Source of the DNA: a virus
Length of the DNA: 64,000 nucleotides
Direction: 5' to 3' (one strand)
Virus record (IMG/VR): IMGVR_UViG_3300022562_001814
Location: 1 to 64,000 of that record
Part shown: positions 2,112 through 41,946 of the stretch, piece after piece
How positions within the stretch are numbered: position 1 is the first letter of the stretch
Layout: each line of letters opens with the position of its first letter
Program-made: the position numbers and the translations under genes
Notes under the pieces: model-generated
Told to the model about the DNA's origin: nothing
What the model saw: only the letters and a program-made list of their open reading frames with translations
Database searches by the model: none

Positions 2112-3071
2112 TTGAGAAACAAAATAGTTAGATTTTCATTAGAACAAGAAAGAGAAATAATTTCTTTATATAAAGATGGTTATGGATCGGAAATATTAGG
2201 AAAACAATACGGTGTTTCAAGTTCTCGTATATGCTTGATTCTTAAAAAATATAGTATTTCTAAAAATAATAATAAATATTTATCAGTTCTGTCTAAAAAA
2301 GAAATATATTTAATTCTTAAATTATATCAAAATGGGGCAACTGTTGGTCAATTAGCTAAAGATTTTGGCGTATACCCTAATGCTATTAAAGGAATTTTAA
2401 CTCGTAGAGGTATTAAAATTAGGCAATATACTAAACCTAAGTTTCATTTTAATGAAGATTTTTTATTGATTAATAGCGCAGAATCTGCATATTTTTATGG
2501 ATTTATATTAGGAGATGGAACTTTTAATATTAAAAGCAACACCCCTTTCATCAAAATTTCAATAAATGAATTAGATTTATCTATTTTAAAAAAATTTTGC
2601 AAATGGTTAAGTATACCGTTAAATAAATTATATTATTTTGAAAAAATAAATCAATATCAATTAGATATTAGAAGTAAATATTTGTATCATATCGCTGATA
2701 CTTGGGGGCTCGTACCAAATAAAACTTATAATCCTAAAATACCACAATTAAATGATTTAAATCTGTTAAAATATTTTATAATTGGATTAATAGATGCTGA
2801 CGGATATGTTAAGTTTATTAAAAATAAACCATATCGAATAGAATTGGTAGGTAATAAAAAAATAATGGATTGGGTAGAGTTACAATTAAGAAATTTAGGA
2901 TTTATAGGACATATCATAAGATATTCTCCTGCTAATGTAGTTTGGTCGAGGCTTGTTGTAGGTAGAAAAAATGATGTAATTGAGTTAGCTAAAATATTAA
3001 ATATAAACTCCTGCCCATTTCTTCTTAAACGAAAGTGGCACGATTTGCAAAATTTTATTCTCGGGCAGTGA
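2112..3071 (+). CDS. LAGLIDADG homing endonuclease, free-standing
   Basis: The N-terminal ~100 residues hold two helix-turn-helix-like segments (SEILGKQYGVSSSRICLIL and VGQLAKDFGVYPNAIKGIL). They are followed by two LAGLIDADG-type motifs, AYFYGFILGDGTFN and FIIGLIDADGYVKF, which in this family form the dimer-like core carrying the metal-binding acidic residues. It therefore looks like an intact double-motif DNA endonuclease with an added DNA-binding head. The only suitable start is TTG at 2112, 18 bp after the topA stop; the ATG at 2099 is in another frame. No matching intron or intein flanks are visible, so it is most likely a free-standing mobile endonuclease in the topA-bS21 gap. Confidence 0.87.
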   Translation: MRNKIVRFSLEQEREIISLYKDGYGSEILGKQYGVSSSRICLILKKYSISKNNNKYLSVLSKKEIYLILKLYQNGATVGQLAKDFGVYPNAIKGILTRRGIKIRQYTKPKFHFNEDFLLINSAESAYFYGFILGDGTFNIKSNTPFIKISINELDLSILKKFCKWLSIPLNKLYYFEKINQYQLDIRSKYLYHIADTWGLVPNKTYNPKIPQLNDLNLLKYFIIGLIDADGYVKFIKNKPYRIELVGNKKIMDWVELQLRNLGFIGHIIRYSPANVVWSRLVVGRKNDVIELAKILNINSCPFLLKRKWHDLQNFILGQ

Positions 3072-3217: not shown

Positions 3218-3634
3218 ATGCATATGAAAAAAGATTTTGAAAAAAATCGAGATCAAATCATTCAAGAGTTTCTGAAGGGAGGTGAACCAATAATAGAAAC
3301 CATTAAAAATCATTTAGATGATAGTTATTTAGATGATTTTACGCCATTAGAAGTTAAAGTCCATGGCTCTAACTTTGATAGAGCGTTTAAAACGTTTAGA
3401 GCAATAGTTCAAAAAGAAAAAATATTATCATTATATAAACAAAAACAGACATATGAAAAACCGTCTGTTAAACGTAGACGTAAAAGAAATGAAATGCGTC
3501 AAAAAAGATTAGAATTAGAATCTAAACATAGAAAAATTCTTTCAGGAGAATTTGAAAAAGAATTGAAGAAAAAACAAAAGTTAAAAGAACTTAAAAAACA
3601 ATTGAAAGAAACTCGTAGAAATGATTTAGGTTGA
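3218..3634 (+). CDS. rpsU: Ribosomal protein bS21-like protein
   Basis: Residues about 46-100 read like the small-subunit protein bS21: FDRAFKTFRAIVQKEKIL, then YEKPSVKRRRKRNEMRQKR. These match the family pattern FDxALRRFKR...G(V/I)L...R...YEKPxxxRKRxxxxxxKR in order and spacing. bS21 binds the 30S platform next to the anti-Shine-Dalgarno end of 16S rRNA and aids initiation. This copy is longer (138 versus about 70 residues). It has a 45-residue N-terminal extension and a very basic, probably helical C-terminal tail. Either ATG 3218 or ATG 3224 could be used. Phage-encoded bS21 is known from other large phages; a role in favouring phage mRNA is inference. Confidence 0.82.
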   Translation: MHMKKDFEKNRDQIIQEFLKGGEPIIETIKNHLDDSYLDDFTPLEVKVHGSNFDRAFKTFRAIVQKEKILSLYKQKQTYEKPSVKRRRKRNEMRQKRLELESKHRKILSGEFEKELKKKQKLKELKKQLKETRRNDLG

Positions 3635-5628: not shown

Positions 5629-5835
5629 ATGCTATGTTTAACTTGTTCTAAATTATCAGTATTATCTAGTAAAAGAATTTGCTTACGATGTAAAGGTGGG
5701 ATATATAATAATATGTCTGTTGTATGTGATAATTGTTCAAATAAAGAACAATTATGTTCTATTTGTTTAAAAAAAATATTTAATTCAAATAATAGAATAA
5801 GACCAAAATCAAATTGTAGTAGTTGTGGTAAATAA
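5629..5835 (+). CDS. Small cysteine-rich (zinc-ribbon-like) protein
   Basis: Sixty-eight residues with five CxxC pairs (CLTC, CLRC, CDNC, CSIC, CSSC), enough for two or more zinc sites of a ribbon or RING-like kind. There is no other recognisable signature. Its TAA stop shares one base with the ATG of the deformylase gene, so the two are translationally coupled and may act together. Confidence 0.72.
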   Translation: MLCLTCSKLSVLSSKRICLRCKGGIYNNMSVVCDNCSNKEQLCSICLKKIFNSNNRIRPKSNCSSCGK

Positions 5836-6365
5836 TGATTATAAATGATGAAAATATTTTAAGATCTTCAAATAAAGATGTGGAGCCTGAAGAAGCTGAA
5901 GCTCTTATTAAGACCTTGGAAAAAGAATTAAATTATTCTTTTTTGATGGGTAGACCTGGTATTGGATTGGCTTGTCCACAAATCGGAATAAACAAAAAAG
6001 CAGCCATAGTAAGAATTAATACAAATGGAGTTTATGATTTATCTGTAAATTTGATTAATGCTAAAATTGAAAAAGGATATAATCCTTTTATTTTTAAAAA
6101 CGAAGGATGTTTATCATTTCCCGATCAATTAAATGATACGACTAGATATCAAGAAATACATGTTATTAATAATGCTGTTAAGCCACATGCATTTATTGCA
6201 ACAGGATTATTTGCTGTAGCTATTCAGCATGAATTAGATCATTTAAATGGTATATTGTTTTTTGATAGGATTGTTAAAAAAAATGTAGCCTCTAAAATGA
6301 GACCAAATGATTTATGTATTTGTGGATCAGGTATTAAATATAAACGTTGTTGTAAATTAAAGTGA
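5835..6365 (+). CDS. def: Peptide deformylase with C-terminal SEC-C zinc motif
   Basis: Removes the N-terminal formyl group from nascent proteins. All three signature motifs are present: GIGLACPQIG (motif 1), EGCLSFP with metal-ligand Cys92 (motif 2), and QHELDH with His132, Glu133 and His136 (motif 3). The C-terminal ~25 residues form a SEC-C motif (LCICGSGIKYKRCC), the zinc module best known from the end of SecA and from some ribosome-associated proteins. Phage deformylases are known and are usually minimal; a SEC-C tail on one is unusual and may help docking to the ribosome or SecB/SecY machinery (inference). It starts on the last base of the upstream zinc-ribbon gene. Confidence 0.95.
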   Translation: MIINDENILRSSNKDVEPEEAEALIKTLEKELNYSFLMGRPGIGLACPQIGINKKAAIVRINTNGVYDLSVNLINAKIEKGYNPFIFKNEGCLSFPDQLNDTTRYQEIHVINNAVKPHAFIATGLFAVAIQHELDHLNGILFFDRIVKKNVASKMRPNDLCICGSGIKYKRCCKLK

Positions 6366-12303: not shown

Positions 12304-13296
12304 ATGACTGTTATTAGCATTTCTGTAACTGAATCATCTGAACAATTAATTGCTGGGTTTCCTAAAACCGTTGCGCTAGAAACCAATATAGCTTCTACGA
12401 TTTTTTATACAATCGATGGTTCTGAGCCAACTAATTTATCATTAGTGTATTTAGATCCAATTGTATTGCCAACAGATGAATTATATTTTATAATTAAGGT
12501 ATTTGCTACTAATGGTATTGATTCTTCTCCCATTATTACATTAGAATATTCTACTAATATTCTTGAAAATGCAAGAATTCCGCATGCCACTGTTAGTAAT
12601 TTATCAAATAATAATTTATATTCATTATATCCTTTTGGGACAAATTCTCCTACTCAAATATTTGATTATCTTAATAGTGCAAATGCGGGAACTACTGTTA
12701 ATAGCCCAGAAATCCCAGATATAACTTTCGGATATGATGCTGATGGATATGGTATCGGAGCAGATCGTCCTTTAGATAATTATTTAAATATATATTCTAC
12801 AACTAATAAATTAAATCAAACCATAGATAATATTGGTAATTTGCCAGGAAAAGTTACCATTATTGGTAGAAGAACCGCTTTAGAATATAATCCAGAGGAA
12901 AGTAACCGTTCAGATGCTCTTTTTGATGCAAAAGCAATGGTAATTTTTCAAGATATAACAACCGAAGATCCTAGCAATCCTCCTCAAATTAATCCACAAT
13001 ATTTCTCGTTAGAGAATTTAGAAATTGTTAAAGATGGAGCTCCACTCAGAGCAAGTGGATTAGATGGTCCCACTATTACTGGCTCTTTTTTAAGATCCCA
13101 TTATAATCCAAGAACACAAATGGTTACATCTTATTATCGTGACAGTAGTACCAATCGTTGGATTATTTCAACGGCTCCTTATGAACCTAAGCAAAATGAT
13201 CCTGGTAATTGGTCAACTATGGTATTTTCAAGAAATGATCAAGGGGCAGGAAAAGTATTCGCTTGGAATTTATTTAGATACAGAACACTTACCTAA
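12304..13296 (+). CDS. Probable surface/structural protein with chitobiase-C-terminal-like domain
   Basis: The first ~85 residues match the CHB_HEX_C (chitobiase C-terminal) beta-sandwich pattern: STIFYTIDGSEPT, then a tyrosine and PI-x-LP, then FIIKVFATN. These small modules often occur on extracellular or virion proteins that meet polysaccharide. The remaining ~240 residues are beta-rich and unrecognised (GRRTALEYNPEESNRSDALF; WIISTAPYEPKQNDPG). It stands out among replication genes, which suggests either a moron-like insertion or a minor virion component. Confidence 0.65.
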   Translation: MTVISISVTESSEQLIAGFPKTVALETNIASTIFYTIDGSEPTNLSLVYLDPIVLPTDELYFIIKVFATNGIDSSPIITLEYSTNILENARIPHATVSNLSNNNLYSLYPFGTNSPTQIFDYLNSANAGTTVNSPEIPDITFGYDADGYGIGADRPLDNYLNIYSTTNKLNQTIDNIGNLPGKVTIIGRRTALEYNPEESNRSDALFDAKAMVIFQDITTEDPSNPPQINPQYFSLENLEIVKDGAPLRASGLDGPTITGSFLRSHYNPRTQMVTSYYRDSSTNRWIISTAPYEPKQNDPGNWSTMVFSRNDQGAGKVFAWNLFRYRTLT

Positions 13297-14189: not shown

Positions 14190-15452
14190 ATGTTAATTGA
14201 AGTTAAAGAAATAGAATATTGTAGATTAAACGTTAAATTTGAAGGTGACGAAGAAAACGTTAAAAATAAAGAATATGAAATGTTACAACATTTTAAACAA
14301 GGTAAAGTCCCAGGTTTTAGAGAAGGTAAGGCGACAACAGAAGCTGTTAAATTTCATTTTAAAAATCAGATCAACGAAGCTGTTAAAAATGAATTAGCTT
14401 ATCAAGCCTTTCAAACGGTTATAGCTGAAAAAAATATTAAACCATTTGGACAGCCACAATTTCTCGCTATTAATTTAGATGGTTCTAAATTTAAATGTGA
14501 ATTTTGTGTTAATCAGGTTCCTAATATTGAATTATCTCAATATAAAAATTTTGAATTACCAAAGGGGACTACGCCCAATTCGATAGAAATGTCGGAAAAA
14601 ATATTACAAGAATTAAGAGTTAGAAATGGTGAAACACTACCTTTCTCCGATGAAGACTTTATTCAATTAGGTGATACGGCAATTATTAATTATATAGGTT
14701 ACTTGCCTGGCGAAGAAGTGCCAACAATTAAAAAAGATGGAGAAATTTTTGTAGTTGGAAAAGCTCATGCAGATGCTTTTAATGATAACATATTGGGTAT
14801 GAAATTAGGTGAATCTAGAGAATTTACTACAATTCTTTCTTTGGATTCGGCCGCTCAGCATATTGCTGGAAAAGAAGTACGTTTTGTAATTGAATTAGCT
14901 ATGGCATCAAAATCTGAGCCCGCGCCTTTAGATGATGAATTGGCAACCAAAGTTGGATGTAAAAATCTCGAAGAGCTAAATAATATAGTTCAAGGCATGT
15001 CTTCTAATAGAGTTAAAGAATTAGAGACCAAATATTTATCTGATCAAGTTGCCGCTAGACTATTAGAAAGTCATAATTTTGAATTACCATCTTGGTTAAC
15101 AAGTTTTGAAGCTAAATTATTTGCAAAACAACAAGGTCATGCGTGGGAATCTTTATCTGATGAACACAAGAGTAATTTTCTTAAAATGGCAGAACAAAAT
15201 GTTAAATTATCTATTATTTTAGATAAAGTGCGGGAAATAGAACCCGATGCACAATTAACAGATGAAGAAGTATTTTCTATTATTAAACAGAGCATATCAA
15301 AATATAAAACAATGCTTAACATGGCAGATAAATCAGATGAAGAGGTATTAAGTAAAATAGCTGAATCAGGATATACGAATGCTTTAATTTCTCAAGTTAG
15401 AGATGATGCAACTATGGATTTTATAATTAAAAATTCTTCTATCTTAGAATAA
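14190..15452 (+). CDS. tig: Trigger factor-like ribosome-associated chaperone
   Basis: The whole trigger factor architecture is visible. The ribosome-binding domain carries the signature loop VPGFREGKA at residues 40-48 (E. coli GFRxGKxP at about the same position), which docks on uL23 at the exit tunnel. A FKBP-like domain follows (about residues 150-240: LGDTAIINYIGYLPGEEVP, ILGMKLGESREF, VRFVIELAMA). The long helical C-terminal arms follow (APLDDELATKVG-x-N-LEEL is a family hallmark). Length 420 against 432 in E. coli. It binds nascent chains, so a phage copy would protect or select phage proteins. Trigger factor is rare in phages as far as I know. Confidence 0.92.
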   Translation: MLIEVKEIEYCRLNVKFEGDEENVKNKEYEMLQHFKQGKVPGFREGKATTEAVKFHFKNQINEAVKNELAYQAFQTVIAEKNIKPFGQPQFLAINLDGSKFKCEFCVNQVPNIELSQYKNFELPKGTTPNSIEMSEKILQELRVRNGETLPFSDEDFIQLGDTAIINYIGYLPGEEVPTIKKDGEIFVVGKAHADAFNDNILGMKLGESREFTTILSLDSAAQHIAGKEVRFVIELAMASKSEPAPLDDELATKVGCKNLEELNNIVQGMSSNRVKELETKYLSDQVAARLLESHNFELPSWLTSFEAKLFAKQQGHAWESLSDEHKSNFLKMAEQNVKLSIILDKVREIEPDAQLTDEEVFSIIKQSISKYKTMLNMADKSDEEVLSKIAESGYTNALISQVRDDATMDFIIKNSSILE

Positions 15453-15464
15453 TGAGGTAATCAA

Positions 15465-15755
15465 ATGAAAGACAAACATTTCCCAGAAAAATATAAAAAG
15501 AAATTAGATAATTTTGCTCAAGGGTATATGGATAATGTAGATTCTTCTGACACGGAAGAGATTAAAAAATTAATTTTATCTTCTGAAAGAAATTTATATG
15601 AAATTGAATACGAAAAAGATAATAATCCAAAAATTTTGAAAATGAAAGAGGATCTTAAGGCAGAAATGTCTCCATTTACAGAGGCAAAACACACCGAAAC
15701 GGCTAAAATTAAATATTGTCTTTTCACGTTAGAGGGTCGTGGAGTTCGTATTTGA
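15465..15755 (+). CDS. Hypothetical protein
   Basis: A 96-residue, strongly charged helical protein (EIKKLILSSERNLYEIEYEK; KMKEDLKAEMSPF). A good AGG ribosome site precedes the ATG. No family is assigned. Such small charged proteins often sit beside recombination genes in T4-like phages, but that is context only. The stop overlaps the TTG start of the next gene. Confidence 0.7.
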   Translation: MKDKHFPEKYKKKLDNFAQGYMDNVDSSDTEEIKKLILSSERNLYEIEYEKDNNPKILKMKEDLKAEMSPFTEAKHTETAKIKYCLFTLEGRGVRI

Positions 15756-16036
15756 TTAAAATAAGTAAAAAAGAATTACAGGCTTGTTGTGGTAAAAAAC
15801 AAATAATTTGGAAATTAAATATTCCAATCAAAAAAGATTACTTGTCTATACTACAACAGGCTGGATTTCATTATGTAAAAACATATTTTGATGCCGGAAT
15901 GATGTATATTGAAGATAAAAATTTAATAGCTACTGGAATTTTTGGTTTAAATGAAATTACTGTTAAATGTAAAACTAAAGAATGTACAGATAGTGCAACT
16001 AAATTGGAACAAATAATTTTAACCAAATTTAATTAA
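15752..16036 (+). CDS. Hypothetical protein, TTG start
   Basis: The frame opens further upstream, but TTG at 15752 is the better start: GGAG sits 7 bases ahead, and the TTGA overlaps the upstream TGA stop. The product is then 94 residues (MIKISKKELQACCGKKQ...). It looks like a small alpha/beta protein (KKDYLSILQQAGFHYVKTYF; LIATGIFGLNEITVKCK). No family recognised. It shares one base with the M41 protease gene downstream. Confidence 0.68.
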   Translation: MIKISKKELQACCGKKQIIWKLNIPIKKDYLSILQQAGFHYVKTYFDAGMMYIEDKNLIATGIFGLNEITVKCKTKECTDSATKLEQIILTKFN

Positions 16037-16680
16037 TGAATGTTGTTAAAAAACAAGCTCATGATTATGAATTAATTGCTATGAGTTGGCATGAAGCTGC
16101 TCATACAATTTGTGGTTTATACAATTTCACTAAAATTTATAATGTTCATGTTATGTCAGATAAACACACAAATGGCAATACATTATATGAAATATGTGAT
16201 CCAGATAATATTGAAAATAAATTATTAGCTAAAATATTATTAATATTTGAAGTACAAACATTATATGCCGGATTAGTGGGTGAAAAACTTTATTATAAAG
16301 AAATATGTGGTTCTGATAATTTTCCTATGCATCTTCGTATCGGTTCATCTAACGATATTCAAGATGCTGCTAGAATTATTCATAAATATAATTTAGCAAA
16401 TCCTGGTAAAGCTAGGTTTTTGTTTAAAAAACAAGTCCAAAATGATACTAAAAATATTTTAACAGAATATTGGGACGATATTAGATTAGTGGCGCACGTC
16501 CTTTATAAAAATAAAGAATTAGAATATGATGAATTAAAATATTTCTTAACAAGAAAATCTATTAATAAAGAATTTTGGAGAGATAGATTTAAATATATAA
16601 AGCTTATTTATGGAGGTAATGAATTAGATGAAAAATATTTAAAAGATATAATTTTACAAAATTCCGTTATTATTATGTAA
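16036..16680 (+). CDS. Stand-alone M41 (FtsH-type) zinc metalloprotease domain
   Basis: Residues 16-30 carry the FtsH-like zinc motif MSWHEAAHTICGLYN (His19, Glu20, His23). About 80 residues later GLVGEKLYYKE and GSSNDIQDAARIIHKYN match the FtsH segment 'GGRxAEE...GAsnDixxAT', whose Asp (Asp107 here) is the third zinc ligand. There is no AAA+ ATPase domain and no membrane segment, so it is only the ~210-residue peptidase part. It could act on already unfolded chains or borrow a host ATPase. It lies between the trigger factor and polymerase genes, overlapping its neighbour by one base. Confidence 0.8.
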   Translation: MNVVKKQAHDYELIAMSWHEAAHTICGLYNFTKIYNVHVMSDKHTNGNTLYEICDPDNIENKLLAKILLIFEVQTLYAGLVGEKLYYKEICGSDNFPMHLRIGSSNDIQDAARIIHKYNLANPGKARFLFKKQVQNDTKNILTEYWDDIRLVAHVLYKNKELEYDELKYFLTRKSINKEFWRDRFKYIKLIYGGNELDEKYLKDIILQNSVIIM

Positions 16681-16765: not shown

Positions 16766-19700
16766 ATGAGTTTTGTTAGTTTACACAATCATTCTTATTA
16801 TTCTATTCTTGATGCTTTGCCATCACCTAAAGAACTTTTTCGTAGGGCTAAAGAATTAAATCAACCCGCCCTTGCTTTAACAGATCATGGTTCGTTCGCC
16901 GGCGCTTGGGATGCATATAAGGCATCAAAAGAAACTGGTGTTAAATTAATTATTGGATCTGAATTTTATTTTTTATCTGATGCTTCTAAAAAAGATGAAA
17001 AAGTTAGACACATAATTTTATTAGCTAAAAATAATTCTGGTTATAGAAATTTATTATCTTTAAATAGATCAGGATTTGACAATCCTATTATTACTGGTAG
17101 GAAAGTTATTCCAATTATTGATTGGAATCTATTATCTAAATATTCTGATGGGGTTATTTGCCTAACGGCTTGTGGTAATGGTATAATTGGACAGCATATC
17201 AATGCAAAAAATTTTGCTGCGGCAGAAAATGATATCAAACATCTTATAGATATTTTTGGAACCGATAATTTGGGTATAGAGGTTCAACCACACGCTTTAA
17301 GTAGGCAGGCAACGCTTTATCACAATGGTATTAATCAGGTTTTTACTAATTTTCATTTAATAAAATTAGCAGAAAAATTTAATCTTAAAGTAGTACCAAC
17401 AACAAATACTCATTATCTTAAAAAAGAACATGCTCCCATGCATGATGTATTATTAGCAATTGGTGCTATGCAACCAATTTATTCTAATGCAAGATTAAAA
17501 TATCCGGTACATGAATTTTATCTTAAATCATATGAAGAAGTAAAAGCATTTTTTGCTAGAAATTTTGGCGATTCCTTTGCCGAAGAAATTTGTAAAAACT
17601 CATTATATTTTGCTGACAAATGCGAAGAGCCAGATTGGATTGATCCTAAATTTTCTAATCCATATGGAAAAGAATTGCCAGTTTTTGCTGTTAAAGAAAC
17701 AAGTGATTATGATAAATTTCAAGATTGGTTAGTCAAACAGTCGGATAAAATACAAAAATTGTCGGAAGATTCGGCTTATCTAAGATTTAAATGTTATGAG
17801 GCTTTTGATCTTAAATTTAAGAATAAATTATCGCTTATAAAGCACAAAGAATATATTGAAAGAATAGAAGAAGAGCTATCTGTTTTAGATTATCAGGGAT
17901 TTAGCTCATATATGTTAATTGTTGCAGATTATATTAATTGGGCAAGAAAAAATAATATTGGAATAGGTCCTGGTAGAGGGAGCGTTGGGGGCTGTTTTAT
18001 TGCATATTTGCTAGGAATTCATAAAGCAGATTCCATACGATATGGACTTATTTTTCCAAGATTTCAAAATAGAGAACGTTCCAGCCCACCAGATATCGAT
18101 CAAGATATAGCAGCTTCAGATAGAGAAAAGGTCATATCATATATTCAACAAAAATATGGACAAGATAAAGTAGCTTTCGTTTCTAATTTTAGTCGTATTA
18201 CTCCCAAAGTTTACGCAAGAGATATTGCAAGATCTTTAGAATTTGGCGGGAACAGAAAAGAAGCTGTTAATATTGGGAATTCAATTGCTGATTCAATTTC
18301 TAAAGAATCTAAAAATTCAATAGATTTTAATGATCTTAAATTAAGTCCTTTATTTATGGAATATGTAAAAAGATATCCTAATCTTGCTTCTAATTCTGAA
18401 ATTTTAGGTAAAATTAGAAATTTTTCTACTCATGCAGCCGCACTCGTTATTTCTAATAGACCTCTTATAGGGTTAGTTCCGGTTAGAAAAGATAAAGATG
18501 GGCATCAAGCTTTAGAATATGAAAAATATAATACAGAAGAAAATGGTCTTCTTAAAATAGATGTTTTGGGATTATCAACTTTGGATTTGATAGAACAAAC
18601 TATTTTACTTATTAATAAAAACAAAAAGAATAAACCAATATCTTTAGAAGATATTGATTTTGAAGATTATGATAAAAAAACATATGATCTTATTTCTAAA
18701 GGAGATACTTACGGGGTATTTCAATTAGGAACAAGTGCCGGTACTATTGATTTATGTAAAAAAATAAAACCTAAAAATATAGAAGATTTGGCAATTATTA
18801 CAACTTTGGCCCGCCCCGCCGCCAAAAATATTATAGATGATTTTATTAAAACACGAGAAGGTAAGCGTGAATTTAAATTATTACATCCTTCATTAAGAAA
18901 TGCTTTTGAAAAAACATATGGGTTTGGTTTGTTTGATGAATCAATTTTACAACTAGGTAAAGATGTAGCTGGTTGGTCTCTTAATGAATCTGATCGTATT
19001 AGAAAAATGATTAAGGAAAAAGGTAAAGATCCAAATAAAGCCAAAAAACTAAGAGAAGAATTTATTGATGGTGCAATCAAAAATGGTATTGGTCGAACCA
19101 TGGCATCTAAAATTTGGGATGAAGAAATTAATAAATTCCAAGGGTATACATTTAATAAATCACATGCCGTACTATATTCTTTTATTTCATATATTACGGC
19201 TTATTTAAAGGCCCATTATCCTGTAGAATTTTTACTAGCTAATTTAATAGCTGAAAATAATTCTAATACCCCAGATGCAGAGGAAAATATAGATAAAGCT
19301 AAAATGGAATTACGTAGATATGGAGTTAATATACTTCCTCCAGATATTAATAAATCTGAAATGGAATATCAATTATTGAATAATAATACGTTATTGACCG
19401 GATTAGATGCTTTAAAATATGTAGGACATGATGCTATTCAAGACATTATTAATAAAAGACCGTTTACTAGTTTTGATGATTTTATGTTAAGAGTAGATAC
19501 AAGAAAAGTAAGATCTTCAGCAATTCAGGCGTTAGCTGCAAGCGGGTGCTTAGATATTTTTAATATTACAAGAAGATCTATTTATTTATATTGTTCTGAT
19601 TATCGTAAAAAATTACAAGTTTGGCTCAAAAAACATGATCCTAAAACTGAAAAATTTAATTTTCCTTGGCCAAATGAATCTGAATGGTCTAAATCAGAAT

Positions 19701-20284
19701 TATTTGCTTTAGAAAAACATTATTTAGGAGAAGCTTTTATTTGTCCTAAAAAAGAAGCATTCGGAACCTTCTTTTTTACAAAAACACATGCTAATATTTC
19801 AACAATTAAATTAAGTAAAAATAGAACATTTTTACCATCAATTAAAGCTGAAATTAAAACAATTTTTGAATTAAAAATAAAAAAGGAAAATAGTAGGTTA
19901 ATAGGCCAGGAAATGGCTAAAGTTGGTATAGAAGACGAATTTGGAATTCAATGTAATTTAACTATATTTCCCGATCGTTGGCAAGAAGTTAAAAAAAGAA
20001 TGAAAATTAATGGTAAAGGGAAAGCGTATTTTGAACCTGGATGTGTTATTCATTTTGCCGGAACTTGTAATTTATATGAAAATGAAATGGGTGTTATTTT
20101 AGAAACATTATTAGAAAGTATGCCTCCTCCAGCGCTTCCACGTGATTTAAAAGCTAGAAAAGTTGCTATTAAAGATTCTGTAACTATCTCGGAAAATTCT
20201 GATTTAATTACCGAGTTAGAAGATCAGTTATTTACAGAAGGTCTTATAGATTTGGATGAAGATCCGTTTTCTTTGGATATATAA
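16766..20284 (+). CDS. dnaE: DNA polymerase III alpha subunit (C-family DnaE)
   Basis: Replicative polymerase of bacterial C-family type. The PHP domain is at the N-terminus (VSLHNHSYYSILD; LALTDHGSFAGAWDA; IGSEFYF; TTNTHYL). The palm has GIGPGRGSVGGCFIAYLLGI, the catalytic pair D443/D445 in PPDIDQDI, and the third Asp D599 in LKIDVLGLSTLD. FSTHAAALVIS and FNKSHAVLYSFISY are further DnaE hallmarks. A helix-hairpin-helix and an OB-like part (VGIEDEFGIQCNLTIFPDRW) follow. At 1172 residues it is full length. It sits alone behind an 85-bp gap with a GAGAGG ribosome site, and the neighbouring ssb, recA and primase genes belong to the same replication set. Confidence 0.96.
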   Translation: MSFVSLHNHSYYSILDALPSPKELFRRAKELNQPALALTDHGSFAGAWDAYKASKETGVKLIIGSEFYFLSDASKKDEKVRHIILLAKNNSGYRNLLSLNRSGFDNPIITGRKVIPIIDWNLLSKYSDGVICLTACGNGIIGQHINAKNFAAAENDIKHLIDIFGTDNLGIEVQPHALSRQATLYHNGINQVFTNFHLIKLAEKFNLKVVPTTNTHYLKKEHAPMHDVLLAIGAMQPIYSNARLKYPVHEFYLKSYEEVKAFFARNFGDSFAEEICKNSLYFADKCEEPDWIDPKFSNPYGKELPVFAVKETSDYDKFQDWLVKQSDKIQKLSEDSAYLRFKCYEAFDLKFKNKLSLIKHKEYIERIEEELSVLDYQGFSSYMLIVADYINWARKNNIGIGPGRGSVGGCFIAYLLGIHKADSIRYGLIFPRFQNRERSSPPDIDQDIAASDREKVISYIQQKYGQDKVAFVSNFSRITPKVYARDIARSLEFGGNRKEAVNIGNSIADSISKESKNSIDFNDLKLSPLFMEYVKRYPNLASNSEILGKIRNFSTHAAALVISNRPLIGLVPVRKDKDGHQALEYEKYNTEENGLLKIDVLGLSTLDLIEQTILLINKNKKNKPISLEDIDFEDYDKKTYDLISKGDTYGVFQLGTSAGTIDLCKKIKPKNIEDLAIITTLARPAAKNIIDDFIKTREGKREFKLLHPSLRNAFEKTYGFGLFDESILQLGKDVAGWSLNESDRIRKMIKEKGKDPNKAKKLREEFIDGAIKNGIGRTMASKIWDEEINKFQGYTFNKSHAVLYSFISYITAYLKAHYPVEFLLANLIAENNSNTPDAEENIDKAKMELRRYGVNILPPDINKSEMEYQLLNNNTLLTGLDALKYVGHDAIQDIINKRPFTSFDDFMLRVDTRKVRSSAIQALAASGCLDIFNITRRSIYLYCSDYRKKLQVWLKKHDPKTEKFNFPWPNESEWSKSELFALEKHYLGEAFICPKKEAFGTFFFTKTHANISTIKLSKNRTFLPSIKAEIKTIFELKIKKENSRLIGQEMAKVGIEDEFGIQCNLTIFPDRWQEVKKRMKINGKGKAYFEPGCVIHFAGTCNLYENEMGVILETLLESMPPPALPRDLKARKVAIKDSVTISENSDLITELEDQLFTEGLIDLDEDPFSLDI

Positions 20285-24419: not shown

Positions 24420-24986
24420 ATGAAAATAATGTCTTTTGATGTTTCTAGCTCGACAATAGGCTGGGCGGTATTTAATATTAAAAATAATAAAATAAATCTT
24501 TTTGATTCTGGGTTTTTTAAACCTATCAAAAAAAATAATATTTTTGAAAATCTTTCTTATGTGAGAGAGCAGATAAAAAATTTATTAGATGAATATAATC
24601 CAGATGAAATAGCTATTGAAGAGATTGCAAGATTTATGCCAAAATTAAGTTCTGCTAATACTATTATCGTGTTAGCATTGTATAATAGAATGGTCGGTTT
24701 AACAGTTTTTGATCATTTAAAAAAAATTCCTTATTTATATAATGTTATGACGATTCGACATAGTATTAAATTATCTAAAGAATTACCCAAAAAAGAAGAA
24801 ATTCCTGAACTTGTAGAAACGATTTTAAATATTACTTTACCAAGAAAATACACCAAAAATGGAATCATCAAATCCGAATTATATGATGAAGCTGATGCGA
24901 TTGCGTGTGGGCTTTGTCACTGGGTGAAAACTAATAATTTACCTTTAATTAAAATAACATCAAGTAAAGTCAGGAAGAAAAAATGA
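24420..24986 (+). CDS. ruvC: RuvC-like Holliday junction resolvase / RNase H-fold nuclease
   Basis: RNase H-fold resolvase. Asp7 lies in MSFDVSSSTIGWAVF (first catalytic Asp with the RuvC 'D-x-S-x-x-x-G-W/Y' pattern). The second motif is EIAIEEIARF (Glu). The end motif is YDEADAIACGL (family DxxDAxA), giving the fourth acidic residue. At 188 residues it matches RuvC (about 170). In the cell it would resolve branched DNA before packaging. It directly follows the ssb terminator, and its stop overlaps the dnaJ start by 4 bp. Confidence 0.87.
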   Translation: MKIMSFDVSSSTIGWAVFNIKNNKINLFDSGFFKPIKKNNIFENLSYVREQIKNLLDEYNPDEIAIEEIARFMPKLSSANTIIVLALYNRMVGLTVFDHLKKIPYLYNVMTIRHSIKLSKELPKKEEIPELVETILNITLPRKYTKNGIIKSELYDEADAIACGLCHWVKTNNLPLIKITSSKVRKKK

Positions 24987-25966
24987 AAATTCAAGAAGCT
25001 TATAAGGTATTAGAAAGCTCATCAGATATTTCAGATGAAGATTTAAAAATTAAATATAAAGATATGGCAAAGAAATATCATCCTGATATTTATAAAAAGG
25101 AACCAGATAAATTTAAAAAAATTAATGAAGCTTATCAATTTATTTTAGATTATAGAAAAAATCCTGAAAAATATGAACCTAATATGAAAAATGGATTTTG
25201 GGGTAGGGTTCCTGATATAGCTAATGATTTTTTTATTAATTTTGGTTTTGAAAATGAGTGGTCTAAACCAAAAGAAATTAAACCAATATTTGTTTCTATC
25301 AATTTAAATTTTAAAGAATCGGTTTTAGGATGCAGCAAAGAAATTAATTATACTAGAAATATTAAATGTAAAGACTGTCAGGGAGCTGGTATTAAACGTA
25401 AGGGTAATGGTTGTGAAACGTGTGACGGGTTTGGTAGATCAACTATTAACAATAAAGGAATGATTTTTCAAACAAAATGTTCAAAATGTCAAGGTAAAAA
25501 TGTCACGCAAAATACTTGTGATAAATGTAAAGGCAAATGTGTAATTAATGAAAATAAACAAGGAAATATTCACGTTCCAGCCGGCATTAAAAATGAAGAA
25601 ATATTAAGAGTTAATGGTGCTGGAAACTTTGTGGGAAGAACTTTTTTTGCTGATGAATATACAGATTTACATATCAAGGTACATGTTAAGTCATACAAGG
25701 ATATGTATATAGAAAATAATAATGTTATTTCAAAATTAAATATTTCATTATTGGAGGCTTTAGAGGGCAAAGAACAAGAAATAGAAACTATTTATGGTAA
25801 TAAGAATGTTACTATTCCACCTAAAACTAAACATTTAGATCAAATTAAAATTCCTAAATGTGGTGTTAATAATACTAACGGAATGCATGTAATTAAATTA
25901 TTTATCGAATATCCTCAAGATGTAACAGATATAATTGGAGTACTTAAAAATGATGTTCATAATTAA
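24983..25966 (+). CDS. dnaJ: DnaJ (Hsp40) co-chaperone
   Basis: The J-domain occupies residues 1-55 with HPD at 33-35 (MAKKYHPDIYKK), the DnaK-stimulating motif. A glycine/aromatic linker follows, then four CxxC zinc repeats (CKDCQGAG, CETCDGFG, CSKCQGK, CDKCKGK; family CxxCxGxG). C-terminal substrate-binding beta domains complete the protein (VPAGIKNEEILRVNGAGN; LNISLLEALEGKEQEI). At 327 residues it is shorter than E. coli DnaJ (376), mostly in the G/F region. No DnaK gene is seen, so it presumably recruits host DnaK to phage proteins or replication complexes. Confidence 0.93.
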   Translation: MKIQEAYKVLESSSDISDEDLKIKYKDMAKKYHPDIYKKEPDKFKKINEAYQFILDYRKNPEKYEPNMKNGFWGRVPDIANDFFINFGFENEWSKPKEIKPIFVSINLNFKESVLGCSKEINYTRNIKCKDCQGAGIKRKGNGCETCDGFGRSTINNKGMIFQTKCSKCQGKNVTQNTCDKCKGKCVINENKQGNIHVPAGIKNEEILRVNGAGNFVGRTFFADEYTDLHIKVHVKSYKDMYIENNNVISKLNISLLEALEGKEQEIETIYGNKNVTIPPKTKHLDQIKIPKCGVNNTNGMHVIKLFIEYPQDVTDIIGVLKNDVHN

Positions 25967-27079: not shown

Positions 27080-28006
27080 ATGAGTAAATTCAATAAAATT
27101 CCAAATAGATCTGATCACTATCAAAATATTTTATTAGAGATAGCATATCCACACGAACTTTTAGATATCTTTCCAGACAGCGATTCTATTTACAAAAAAC
27201 TTAATCCATTTTCTTATAATGATGAAATAGCTGAACTTCATGATCTTTTAAATAAAGAGTTATGGCGTATTATAGAAGATCATTTAACAGATAGACAAAA
27301 ACAGGTCGTTAAATTATATGCATCTGGTAAAACTCAAATTGAAATTGCAAAAATATTGGGAGTTAATCAGTCATCTATTACAAAATGTTTATCAGGTGAT
27401 ACTTTAATTTATACTAGCGCAGGTAATGCTAAACTTGGCGATTTATGGTTAGGGTGGGAGTGGAATCCATATACAATAATGAACTATCAAGTAGCTTGTA
27501 TGGATCGGAAACTTAACATTAAATACAATACAATTAATAATGTGATTTGTCAAGGAGAAAAGCCTATATTAGAAATTACAACTATTTCCGGAAAAACTAT
27601 CAAAGCAACCCCAGATCATAAATTTTACACCGCACAGGGGTGGGTAGAACTACAAACAATAATAGAAAATAATCTACAGTTAGCAATACTTAATGATATT
27701 CCGACAAAATTAGATGATATTGGTCCGGAGATCGGGTGGGAAAATATTATTAAATATGAAAATAAATCAAATGAGGTTGTGTTTGATTTAAGTATGAAAG
27801 CACCAAATCATAATTTTATTGCAAATGGAATAATAACACATAATTGTATAAATGGTAATGTTGATTACAAAAATAAAGATAGTAAAGGAAAACCAATTAC
27901 TTATGGTGGTGTTAAGTTAAAATTACAGAAAATAGCTAAAGAAGATAAAGTAATTAACGAAATTTTACAAAAAATTGCTGATATTAGAGATAATGATCCA
28001 TTCTAA
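27080..28006 (+). CDS. Sigma-region-4/LuxR-like helix-turn-helix protein interrupted by a mini-intein
   Basis: The host protein (extein, about 155 residues) has a helix-turn-helix like sigma region 4: LTDRQKQVVKLYASGKTQIE, then IAKILGVNQSSITK. An in-frame intein occupies residues 103-255. After splicing, SITK joins CINGNVDYKNKDSKG, which continues to a lysine-rich helical C-terminus (LQKIAKEDKVINEILQKIAD). It could be a phage transcription regulator. The insertion lies at the recognition helix, so the protein is presumably inactive until spliced. Confidence 0.83.
   Translation: MSKFNKIPNRSDHYQNILLEIAYPHELLDIFPDSDSIYKKLNPFSYNDEIAELHDLLNKELWRIIEDHLTDRQKQVVKLYASGKTQIEIAKILGVNQSSITKCLSGDTLIYTSAGNAKLGDLWLGWEWNPYTIMNYQVACMDRKLNIKYNTINNVICQGEKPILEITTISGKTIKATPDHKFYTAQGWVELQTIIENNLQLAILNDIPTKLDDIGPEIGWENIIKYENKSNEVVFDLSMKAPNHNFIANGIITHNCINGNVDYKNKDSKGKPITYGGVKLKLQKIAKEDKVINEILQKIADIRDNDPF
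27386..27844 (+). mobile_element. Mini-intein (153 residues, no endonuclease)
   Basis: Block A CLSGDTLIYTSAGNAKLGDL starts at Cys103. Block B is TIKATPDHKFYTAQGW (TxxH). Blocks F/G are VFDLSMKAPNHNFIANGIIT ending in HN, and the +1 residue is Cys256. All residues needed for splicing are present. The length of 153 residues leaves no room for a homing endonuclease, so it is a splicing-only mini-intein. Confidence 0.92.
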
Positions 28007-39027: not shown

Positions 39028-41946
39028 ATGACAGAAGAACAAAATAAATTTATTCCACCAGTTACTCCAACTATGTATAAAGCCGTCTCTGAATATCGTC
39101 GAGCTGAATTAGAAGGAGAGGTTAATAGGGGTTTATTTAGAGACGGTTCAACTAGAACTAAAGAATCTAATTTATCTCCAGCATCATATGCTGTACCCGG
39201 CGCTGTCAAATATGCTCAAAGTTATGAAGCTTCAGCTGCTAATTCATTTAAAGGTGGGGTAGGTAATACAACTCAACAAATACCTGAAGTATATTCCCCT
39301 TTATGGTTAACTAGTAATTTAAATTTACCTCGTGACCGGGCAACAATGAATGCTTGGTGCCGTAGTTTTTATGCTTTAAATCCTATTGTACAAAATGCTA
39401 TTAATTTACACAGTACATATCCAATTAGTAAATTAAACATTAAATGTCCTAACAAAAAAGTAGAGAATTTATTTAATGAACAAATAGAAGAATTAGGATT
39501 AATGAATATATGTTCACAAGCAGCTCAAGAATATTGGCTATTGGGTGAAGCGGTTGTTTACGGAGAATTAGATGAAAGAAATGCCAAATGGTCAAGATTA
39601 CTTATTCAAAACCCTGATTATATAGTTATTAAAAGATCAGTTATAGCTAATGAGCCTATAATTATGTTAAGACCTGATGAAAATTTAAGACGTATTTGTA
39701 TGTCAAATTTGCCGTCAGATATTGAACAACGTAAACAACTTAATGAAACTATTATTGAATACGTAAGAAGAGGGCAAAATATTCCTTTAGATAATTTGTA
39801 TGTTTCTCATTTGGCTAGAAAAATTAGCCCCTATGAAGTAAGAGGTACTGGTCTTCCGGTAAGTGTTTTTCGTTCATTAATGTTGTTCGACTTAATTAAA
39901 GAATGCAAATTCGCTCAGGCCCAAGATATGATTAATCCTATGCGTATTATTAAAATTGGTGGCGGTACGGCTGATTATCGAGCTAATCCTGTCGATTTAG
40001 ATGCTTGGAGAGAGGTTTGGGCCTGTCACGACGAAGATACTGAGGTTCTTACTAATAATGGTTTTAAAAAAATTACAGAAATAACTTCATTTGAAGAAGA
40101 CAATAATTTAATATCTAATATTAAATGTAATGATAATATAAAGATAGCTTGTTTTAATCCTAATAACGAGAGATTAGAATATTATAAACCACTAGAAACT
40201 CATATTTATAATTATAGTGGTGAAATGTATCACTTCCATAATAAAAAAGTTGATGTAAAGGTTACACCAAATCACGATATGTGGGTTTCAACAAAAGAGG
40301 TTTATTATCACGGCTCATCTGAGTCGAGAGAAGAAAAGTGGAGCGAATGGAGAAAAGTAAAGGCAGAAGATATAAAACTATCTTATGGGAACAAATTTAG
40401 ATCAACGGTTAATTGGGTGGGTGAAGAGCCGAGTGAAGTTGATATTATTGGAAATAAAGTGCCAATTGAATTATATTTAAAATATCTTGGATATCTTATT
40501 AGCGAAGGCTCGTTAGTTAAATATGGTAAATATAAATTTACTACCCAATATTGTCAAACTCATTCTAAATATTATGAGGAAATGAGAGATACAGCCAATG
40601 AAATGGCTTTATTTTTAAATAAATATTGTTATGAATACAAAGATTATAGGTCTACTTATACAAATAATTGTAAAGATATTAGTTCATTTATATTTAATGG
40701 TAAAGATATATTTGATCATTTTAAATCTGAAATATCAACTGATGGAAATTCCACATCTTTATTTAAAAAGTTGCCAAAATGGGTATTAACCTTGTCCCCA
40801 AGATTATTAAAAATATTGTTAAATGCAGCTTGTCAAGGCGATGGTTCATTTAAATTAAATAAAAACAATACTGTTGGATATGAGTATTATACCACTTCTA
40901 AAGAATTGTCAGATAATATATATGAGATAGCATTTAAAGCCGGCTATGCCCCAGTGTTATCAACTAGCCAAGATAAAAGAGATAATAGAAATCTTATTTA
41001 TAGGATTAGATGGTCAGAAAATATAAGTGGTAAATATCCGTATATTTATAAATATTCAACGAATTCAAATACAAAAGAAAAGAAAGATACCTTTAATAAA
41101 GAAATTTATAACGGTAAAGTATGGTGTTTTACAGTTCCTACCGGATTATTTATTACACGGAGAAATGGTAAAATAACAATTCAAGGTAATAGCGCGACAG
41201 CTGATAAAAATTTCAAAATTTTTACTCACGACGCTGTCAACGTTGAAACTGTTGGCGCCGGGCAAGGCATTTACGATACTAGTAATGATTTTACTCAATT
41301 ACTTAAAGAAATGTATGCTGGATTGATGGTTCCACAAATTATTATTGAAGGCGGTGGAGATATTACATATGCTAATGCTGGAGTATCATTAGATGTATTA
41401 CGTCAACGTTATATGCAATTTAGAAATATGATGGCAGCTTGGTTGCGTAAGAAAATTTTTCAACCTATTGCTAAATTAAATGAATTCTACGATTATGTAG
41501 ATGGAGAGAAGGTTCTTATTATTCCGGAAGTTGATTGGAATCATATGAGTCTTTTTGATCTTGAATCATATGTGCAAACCTTACGTGATTTAACAACTGG
41601 AGAACAAGGTGGTAAGCGAGTTTCTGTACATACATTATATCGTTCTTTAGGTCTTGAATGGGAAGAAGAACGTCGTAAAATTCGTAAAGAAGATATCGCT
41701 GAAGCAATTAGAAAAAAAGAGCAGGCTTCTTTGGATAAAATGACACTTAATGAATTAAGAACTTTAAATGAAGAAGATGAAATTCCGGAAATTTTAGAAA
41801 CCCCATTACCTGGCGAAAGTCCTTACGATACTGGTTCGTCAGGTGCCGAAGGCGGTCCTGGTGGTCCTGGCGGGTTGCCGGGCTTGGAGCCCGGAGCTGC
41901 TCCTCCAGAAATGCCAGCTCCACCTATACCTCCTCCAACTCCTTAA
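39028..41946 (+). CDS. Portal protein interrupted by an endonuclease-bearing intein
   Basis: Dodecameric portal through which DNA enters the head. The extein is 583 residues: LPRDRATMNAWCRSFYALNP, then ISKLNIKCPN, ALNPIVQNAINLHSTYP, and QAAQEYWLLGEAVVYGELD are typical of phage portals placed directly after terL. After the intein, FKIFTHDAVNVETVGAGQGI then LKEMYAGLMVPQIIIEGG and LRQRYMQFRNMMAAWLRKKI finish the clip and stem. The C-terminus is Gly/Pro-rich. The intein (residues 333-721) splits a surface stretch: REVWA | SATADKNF. Splicing should restore an ordinary portal. Confidence 0.88.
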   Translation: MTEEQNKFIPPVTPTMYKAVSEYRRAELEGEVNRGLFRDGSTRTKESNLSPASYAVPGAVKYAQSYEASAANSFKGGVGNTTQQIPEVYSPLWLTSNLNLPRDRATMNAWCRSFYALNPIVQNAINLHSTYPISKLNIKCPNKKVENLFNEQIEELGLMNICSQAAQEYWLLGEAVVYGELDERNAKWSRLLIQNPDYIVIKRSVIANEPIIMLRPDENLRRICMSNLPSDIEQRKQLNETIIEYVRRGQNIPLDNLYVSHLARKISPYEVRGTGLPVSVFRSLMLFDLIKECKFAQAQDMINPMRIIKIGGGTADYRANPVDLDAWREVWACHDEDTEVLTNNGFKKITEITSFEEDNNLISNIKCNDNIKIACFNPNNERLEYYKPLETHIYNYSGEMYHFHNKKVDVKVTPNHDMWVSTKEVYYHGSSESREEKWSEWRKVKAEDIKLSYGNKFRSTVNWVGEEPSEVDIIGNKVPIELYLKYLGYLISEGSLVKYGKYKFTTQYCQTHSKYYEEMRDTANEMALFLNKYCYEYKDYRSTYTNNCKDISSFIFNGKDIFDHFKSEISTDGNSTSLFKKLPKWVLTLSPRLLKILLNAACQGDGSFKLNKNNTVGYEYYTTSKELSDNIYEIAFKAGYAPVLSTSQDKRDNRNLIYRIRWSENISGKYPYIYKYSTNSNTKEKKDTFNKEIYNGKVWCFTVPTGLFITRRNGKITIQGNSATADKNFKIFTHDAVNVETVGAGQGIYDTSNDFTQLLKEMYAGLMVPQIIIEGGGDITYANAGVSLDVLRQRYMQFRNMMAAWLRKKIFQPIAKLNEFYDYVDGEKVLIIPEVDWNHMSLFDLESYVQTLRDLTTGEQGGKRVSVHTLYRSLGLEWEEERRKIRKEDIAEAIRKKEQASLDKMTLNELRTLNEEDEIPEILETPLPGESPYDTGSSGAEGGPGGPGGLPGLEPGAAPPEMPAPPIPPPTP
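40024..41190 (+). mobile_element. Intein with LAGLIDADG homing endonuclease (389 residues)
   Basis: Starts at Cys333 (block A CHDEDTEVLTNNGFKKITEI). Block B is VDVKVTPNHDMWVS. DOD/LAGLIDADG motifs are YLKYLGYLISEGSLVKYGKY and LLNAACQGDGSFKLNKNN. The C-terminal splicing block is VWCFTVPTGLFITRRNGK...QGN, followed by extein Ser722. The residue before the terminal Asn is Gly instead of His, as in other phage inteins ending '(R)RNGK...GNS'. The endonuclease motifs look intact. Confidence 0.93.

Follow-up and report, generated by a model that had tools for sequence, protein, structure and literature searches.

The window analysed here, the first 64,000 nucleotides of a 200.7-kb virus record, encodes a stand-alone M41 (FtsH-type) peptidase of 214 residues (positions 16036 to 16680, plus strand). 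We consider it fairly probable that this protein is a soluble, single-domain zinc peptidase capable of catalysis, acting most likely on newly made proteins beside trigger factor. The identification combines the open reading frame itself with a Pfam match, an hhalign comparison to FtsH, and an AlphaFold2 model followed by a fold search.

Motifs, domain content and fold

The reading frame is intact, running from an ATG at 16036 to a stop codon that ends at 16680. It carries the zinc motif HEAAH at residues 19–23 (16090 to 16104) and the third-ligand motif SSNDI at residues 104–108 (16345 to 16359; GSSNDI at 103–108), both on the plus strand. The third ligand itself, D107, is encoded by codon 16354–16356 and lies at the start of a helix, within the ~75–90 residues downstream of HExxH that are expected for M41. 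A loose version of this motif pair arose in none of 200,000 composition-preserving shuffles. Directly before the third-ligand helix stands a phage-specific insert, ICGSDNFPMHLR (residues 90–101; 16303 to 16338, plus strand), which shows up as a gap in the hhalign alignments to FtsH.

The boundary of the FtsH peptidase domain coincides with the start of the 214-aa frame (MNVVKKQAHDYELIAMSWHEAAH). According to Pfam and a reading of the frame, M41 is the only domain and an AAA+ motif is absent; nor does an AAA+ or membrane part adjoin the frame, which is flanked by the genes for trigger factor and two small proteins on one side and for DNA polymerase III on the other. The N-terminal transmembrane anchor of the FtsH family is likewise absent, and no transmembrane segment is evident in the protein, the 19-residue hydropathy maximum of 1.75 falling on a helix of the M41 core. 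The preliminary description had claimed that the AAA+ and membrane parts are missing, and these results bear it out.

Taken alone, the window protein matches Pfam M41 (PF01434) at 23.5 bits (E 5.5e-5), a weak score against a gathering score of 29.9, and it reaches 15.7 bits against NCBIfam TIGR01241 (FtsH), below the cut-off of 600. Because the Pfam match is weak for a single sequence, four further tests of homology were run. Relatives in G003, G099 and G107 exceed the Pfam gathering score, and all 15 members of the phage alignment A8 match Pfam M41, the best at 2.4e-7. Compared with FtsH peptidase domains by hhalign, the family gives probabilities of 97.9–98.1% (E 5e-13 to 1e-13); the alignments cover the HExxH half and the C-terminal helical bundle and place D107 on the third-ligand Asp of FtsH. 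Sequence searches of the PDB returned nothing relevant with the single window protein, marginal FtsH matches with a five-row profile, and E. coli FtsH at 1.6e-6 with a 15-row profile.

The AlphaFold2 model of the window protein has a pLDDT of 85. When it was used to search the PDB by fold, the top 22 entries were all FtsH-type chains (Z 13–17), namely the peptidase domains of FtsH, m-AAA, i-AAA and FtsHi complexes. The match to FtsH of T. maritima (2ce7) has a Z of 16.0, with 2.1 Å over 145 residues, and that to the isolated protease domain of A. aeolicus FtsH (2di4) a Z of 15.1. Thus profile comparison, predicted fold and ligand alignment uphold the earlier assignment of HEAAH and SSNDI to M41. 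As judged from this modelled fold and the profiles, the window protein is an M41-domain peptidase that stands outside the FtsH family definition, lacking the AAA+ domain and the membrane anchor.

The phage protein shares with FtsH and the m-AAA and i-AAA proteases (M41; 2ce7, 2di4) the peptidase fold, HExxH, the Asp third ligand and the C-terminal helical bundle, but not the AAA+ domain or the membrane anchor. It has ~11 extra residues, within ICGSDNFPMHLR, before the third ligand, where the FtsH loop is shorter, and only a short linker joins its third-ligand helix to the C-terminal bundle, in place of the longer segment of FtsH. A C-terminal part with an invariant Trp is also specific to the phage protein. 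Owing to the insert and the shortened segment after the third ligand, the active-site environment differs from that of FtsH.

Below the FtsH types, the fold search returned 5iqj, SpoIVFB and a remainder at Z 3.5 or less. Among small stand-alone chains in the PDB, a clear match was limited to 5iqj, a Vibrio cholerae protein of 131 aa whose function is unknown; it is shorter than the phage protein and, compared by fold, matches the M41-like part with a Z of 10.0 and 3.2 Å over 115 residues. The M50 or site-2 proteases (SpoIVFB, Z 6.0) have HExxH and part of the core in common, and a few members of the phage alignment gave weak Pfam M50 matches. However, M50 proteases are membrane-embedded and have another third-ligand motif, whereas the phage protein has the M41 motif and no evident transmembrane segment.

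Conservation among large phages

Scans of viral contigs with the M41 alignment recovered relatives at 73% to ~31% identity, all of them stand-alone. A trigger-factor alignment, independent of M41, was also used as a scan seed and yielded 56 viral contigs of up to 481 kb; M41 is a separate frame of 199–239 aa in every one. The 57 M41 sequences compared comprise 50 distinct ones, some contigs being near-duplicates, and are 21–73% identical to the window protein. H19, E20, H23 and D107 are invariant in all 57, as are G79, E83, G92 (within the insert), W146 and W181; G47 and the insert residue P97 are found in 56. The preliminary description had made its assignment depend on conserved zinc ligands in homologues, and these are present throughout. 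That the whole zinc site is conserved between such divergent sequences speaks for catalysis. The commonest HExxH variant among the relatives is HEAGH, which is the usual FtsH form, and the HEAAH of the window is a minority form.

Between the three closest copies of the gene, dN is 0.11–0.19 and dS 0.97–1.15, comparable with the polymerase gene, and these rates indicate that the M41 gene is under purifying selection. Its presence across the contigs marks it as a core gene in a clade of jumbo phages. Two contigs first found via polymerase III (L005 and L008) carry a stand-alone M41 too, while polymerase III relatives at ~32% identity or less showed no M41 within the stretches read. No second M41 and no full-length FtsH was found in the phage records searched.

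Searching 50,697 phage records by tblastn gave no match for the M41 proteins of the window, L043 and L037, and the most divergent member, L008, gave matches at E 0.1 or worse only; among the latter was a full FtsH in a record that also holds glgX, proS and lepA and resembles host DNA. A scan of genome contigs with M41 found full-length FtsH only, the nearest cellular relatives being 23–28% identical. Across 81 genomes of the Aneurinibacillus phylum, a survey of M41 returned mostly FtsH of 600–700 aa and M41 proteins of ~500 aa, along with a few short frames. A profile of the phage family, run against 101 genomes of the same phylum, hit frames of 448–694 aa only, except for one of 352 aa near a contig start.

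UniProt already includes stand-alone phage M41 proteins under automatically assigned names. One of them, A0A6J5RJ76 from an uncultured Caudovirales phage (BFVD/UniProt; 214 aa, stand-alone), matches the window protein with a TM-score of 0.91 and 36% identity and evidently belongs to the same family; its name, 'Peptidase M41 domain-containing protein', is an automatic database label. In a limited library searched for stand-alone M41, phage M41 and phage trigger factor, we found no description of the family, of its placement by trigger factor or of its activity. The main text of a huge-phage survey (PMC7162821) mentions neither FtsH nor trigger factor, and both are also unmentioned in the main text of the moraphage paper (PMC12619734).

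The gene block around the peptidase

The order trigger factor, A, B, M41, DNA polymerase III is found in 56 of 56 contigs. The place beside trigger factor proposed earlier therefore stands as a constant linkage but not as direct adjacency, two small conserved genes lying between. The trigger factor (14190 to 15452, plus strand; 420 aa) matches TIGR00115 at 3e-56 as well as Trigger_N and Trigger_C, all over cut-off, and carries the PGFR loop, the element by which cellular trigger factor docks to the ribosome. A pattern search detects the loop in 10 of 15 trigger factors, and G42 and R44 are present in every one of the 15.

Gene A (15465 to 15755, plus strand) encodes 96 aa of no known family and is present in all 56 contigs. 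Gene B (15752 to 16036, plus strand) starts with TTG and encodes 94 aa with paired cysteines (CC...CxxxC). Its AlphaFold2 model has a pLDDT of 94, and a fold search of the PDB gave no significant match, TBP-like ones at Z ~8 being background. The protein is a possible M41 partner. In the window, the stop of A and the start of B overlap as TTGA, and the TAA stop of B and the ATG of M41 as TAATG. Many relatives likewise have closely spaced or overlapping genes here, with L004 and L037 as exceptions that have a gap of more than 100 bases before M41. The start/stop overlaps probably couple A, B and M41 in the window phage.

The next gene after M41 (synteny 56/56) encodes DNA polymerase III alpha, recognised by its PHP and DnaE domains in Pfam (16766 to 20284, plus strand). 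This polymerase is enlarged or split in some relatives (L008, 6183–10223; L045, L047, L042), and that of L008 contains an intein-like segment (CLTGETRVLTKDGF...). Also encoded in the collinear block around M41 is a peptide deformylase that bears a C-terminal SEC-C zinc tail (5835 to 6365, plus strand; Pfam), and the SEC-C-like Cys tail is kept in the relatives read (L118, L119, L120, L121 and L122). The fusion of deformylase and SEC-C is unusual and could tether the enzyme near the ribosome or the SecA/SecB machinery. Downstream in the block lies a DnaJ homologue (24983 to 25966, plus strand; Pfam), also present in L005 and L008.

Elsewhere in the window, a 330-aa protein of unknown function (12304–13296) is conserved in position in all relatives read. 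A helix-turn-helix (sigma-like) frame at 27080–28006 appears to be split by a mini-intein (CLSGDTLIY...NGIITHNC), and a probable portal protein at 39028–41946 has an apparent intein with a homing-endonuclease part (HDEDTEVLTNNGF...).

Proposed activity and its alternatives

Conservation and predicted fold suggest that zinc would be held by H19 and H23 of HEAAH together with D107, and that water would be activated by E20. The FtsH peptidase is normally hexameric beneath its AAA ring. Having no such ring, the phage enzyme would not thread folded proteins and would thus cut chains that lack native structure beforehand, whether nascent, misfolded or intrinsically exposed. More tentatively than the enzymatic activity itself, we suggest that during phage takeover it may remove or trim chains whose folding fails. 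A role on nascent proteins beside trigger factor is suggested by the block shared with trigger factor, A and B, by the gene overlaps, and by the SEC-C deformylase and DnaJ. We prefer this role because chains exiting the ribosome are the targets of deformylase and trigger factor alike. On balance, M41 would act independently of ATP on non-native chains, probably around phage translation.

The synteny could, on the other hand, reflect replication or early-gene organisation and not a function shared with trigger factor, the polymerase gene being a neighbour of M41 as well. If the enzyme were instead dedicated to processing or regulation, it would cut one or a few particular proteins of phage or host, such as a host regulator or a replication protein, and trigger factor would be a mere neighbour; the position directly upstream of the polymerase in all 56 contigs would be in keeping with this. 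Single-domain peptidases without an unfoldase are often sequence-specific, and the phage-specific insert and the extra C-terminal part with the invariant W146 and W181 could form a recognition surface. We nevertheless hold this to be a serious but unlikely contender, given that trigger factor, A and B are equally invariant in the block and that no candidate substrate has been identified. It is very unlikely that the protein is a pseudo-peptidase that keeps the M41 fold only as a binding or inhibitory module: FtsHi motor complexes contain inactive M41 homologues, and chains of such complexes are among the best fold matches, but the invariance of every catalytic and ligand residue in 57 sequences is unexpected for a pseudo-enzyme. 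The chance that the frame is a truncated or mis-assembled FtsH fragment, or bacterial contamination, is negligible. Its short length is the sole point in favour of such an origin, which is refuted by the recurrence of the same separate frame, with its gene order preserved, in 56 viral contigs, the nearest cellular relatives being full-length and distant.

Supply of substrates in trans by an AAA+ unfoldase, either a ~440-aa phage AAA protein or a host FtsH ring into which M41 is inserted, seems to us quite improbable. The M41 domains of FtsH do operate under an AAA ring, and most large relatives encode such a protein (PF00004, E ~1e-19 to 1e-22) ~15–18 kb upstream of M41 on the same strand, between the TopA gene and the homologue of the window frame 3218–3634 (as in L118–L122). 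In the window record, however, the ~440-aa protein is missing and its slot holds a putative LAGLIDADG-type homing endonuclease (2112–3071); a helicase loader resembling IstB/DnaC is the record's sole PF00004 match, and a search of the record for AAA_2 proteins was negative. The AAA protein is also absent from G096 (473 kb), G102 (406 kb) and G116 (221 kb), and G004 (428 kb) gives weak, partial AAA matches only, while M41 is present in all four. Records may be incomplete, so that absence from one is weak evidence and absence from several is better. A phage-encoded unfoldase as an obligate partner was set aside, since the AAA protein is missing from the window phage and several large relatives that carry M41. 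It may cooperate with M41 and is unlikely to be required by it.

Returning to the preferred reading of a motor-free peptidase beside trigger factor, a bolder version would have trigger factor, A, B, M41 and the SEC-C-tailed deformylase form a phage unit for nascent-chain processing and quality control, with a chaperone on the ribosome, not an AAA+ ring, feeding the peptidase. We regard this version as doubtful; if true, it would amount to virus-run, ATP-independent, co-translational proteolysis by an FtsH-type peptidase.

To our knowledge, nearly all known M41 peptidases are AAA+ proteases, whose ATP hydrolysis supplies the peptidase with substrate. Here a core viral gene has preserved the M41 zinc site across wide divergence but has no motor, so that nature provides a test of whether M41 can work by itself and of how substrates are chosen when no unfoldase is present; the module is also small enough for expression and assay. 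Its constant association with a viral trigger factor suggests that phages control newly made proteins, an aspect of giant-phage takeover that has received little study.
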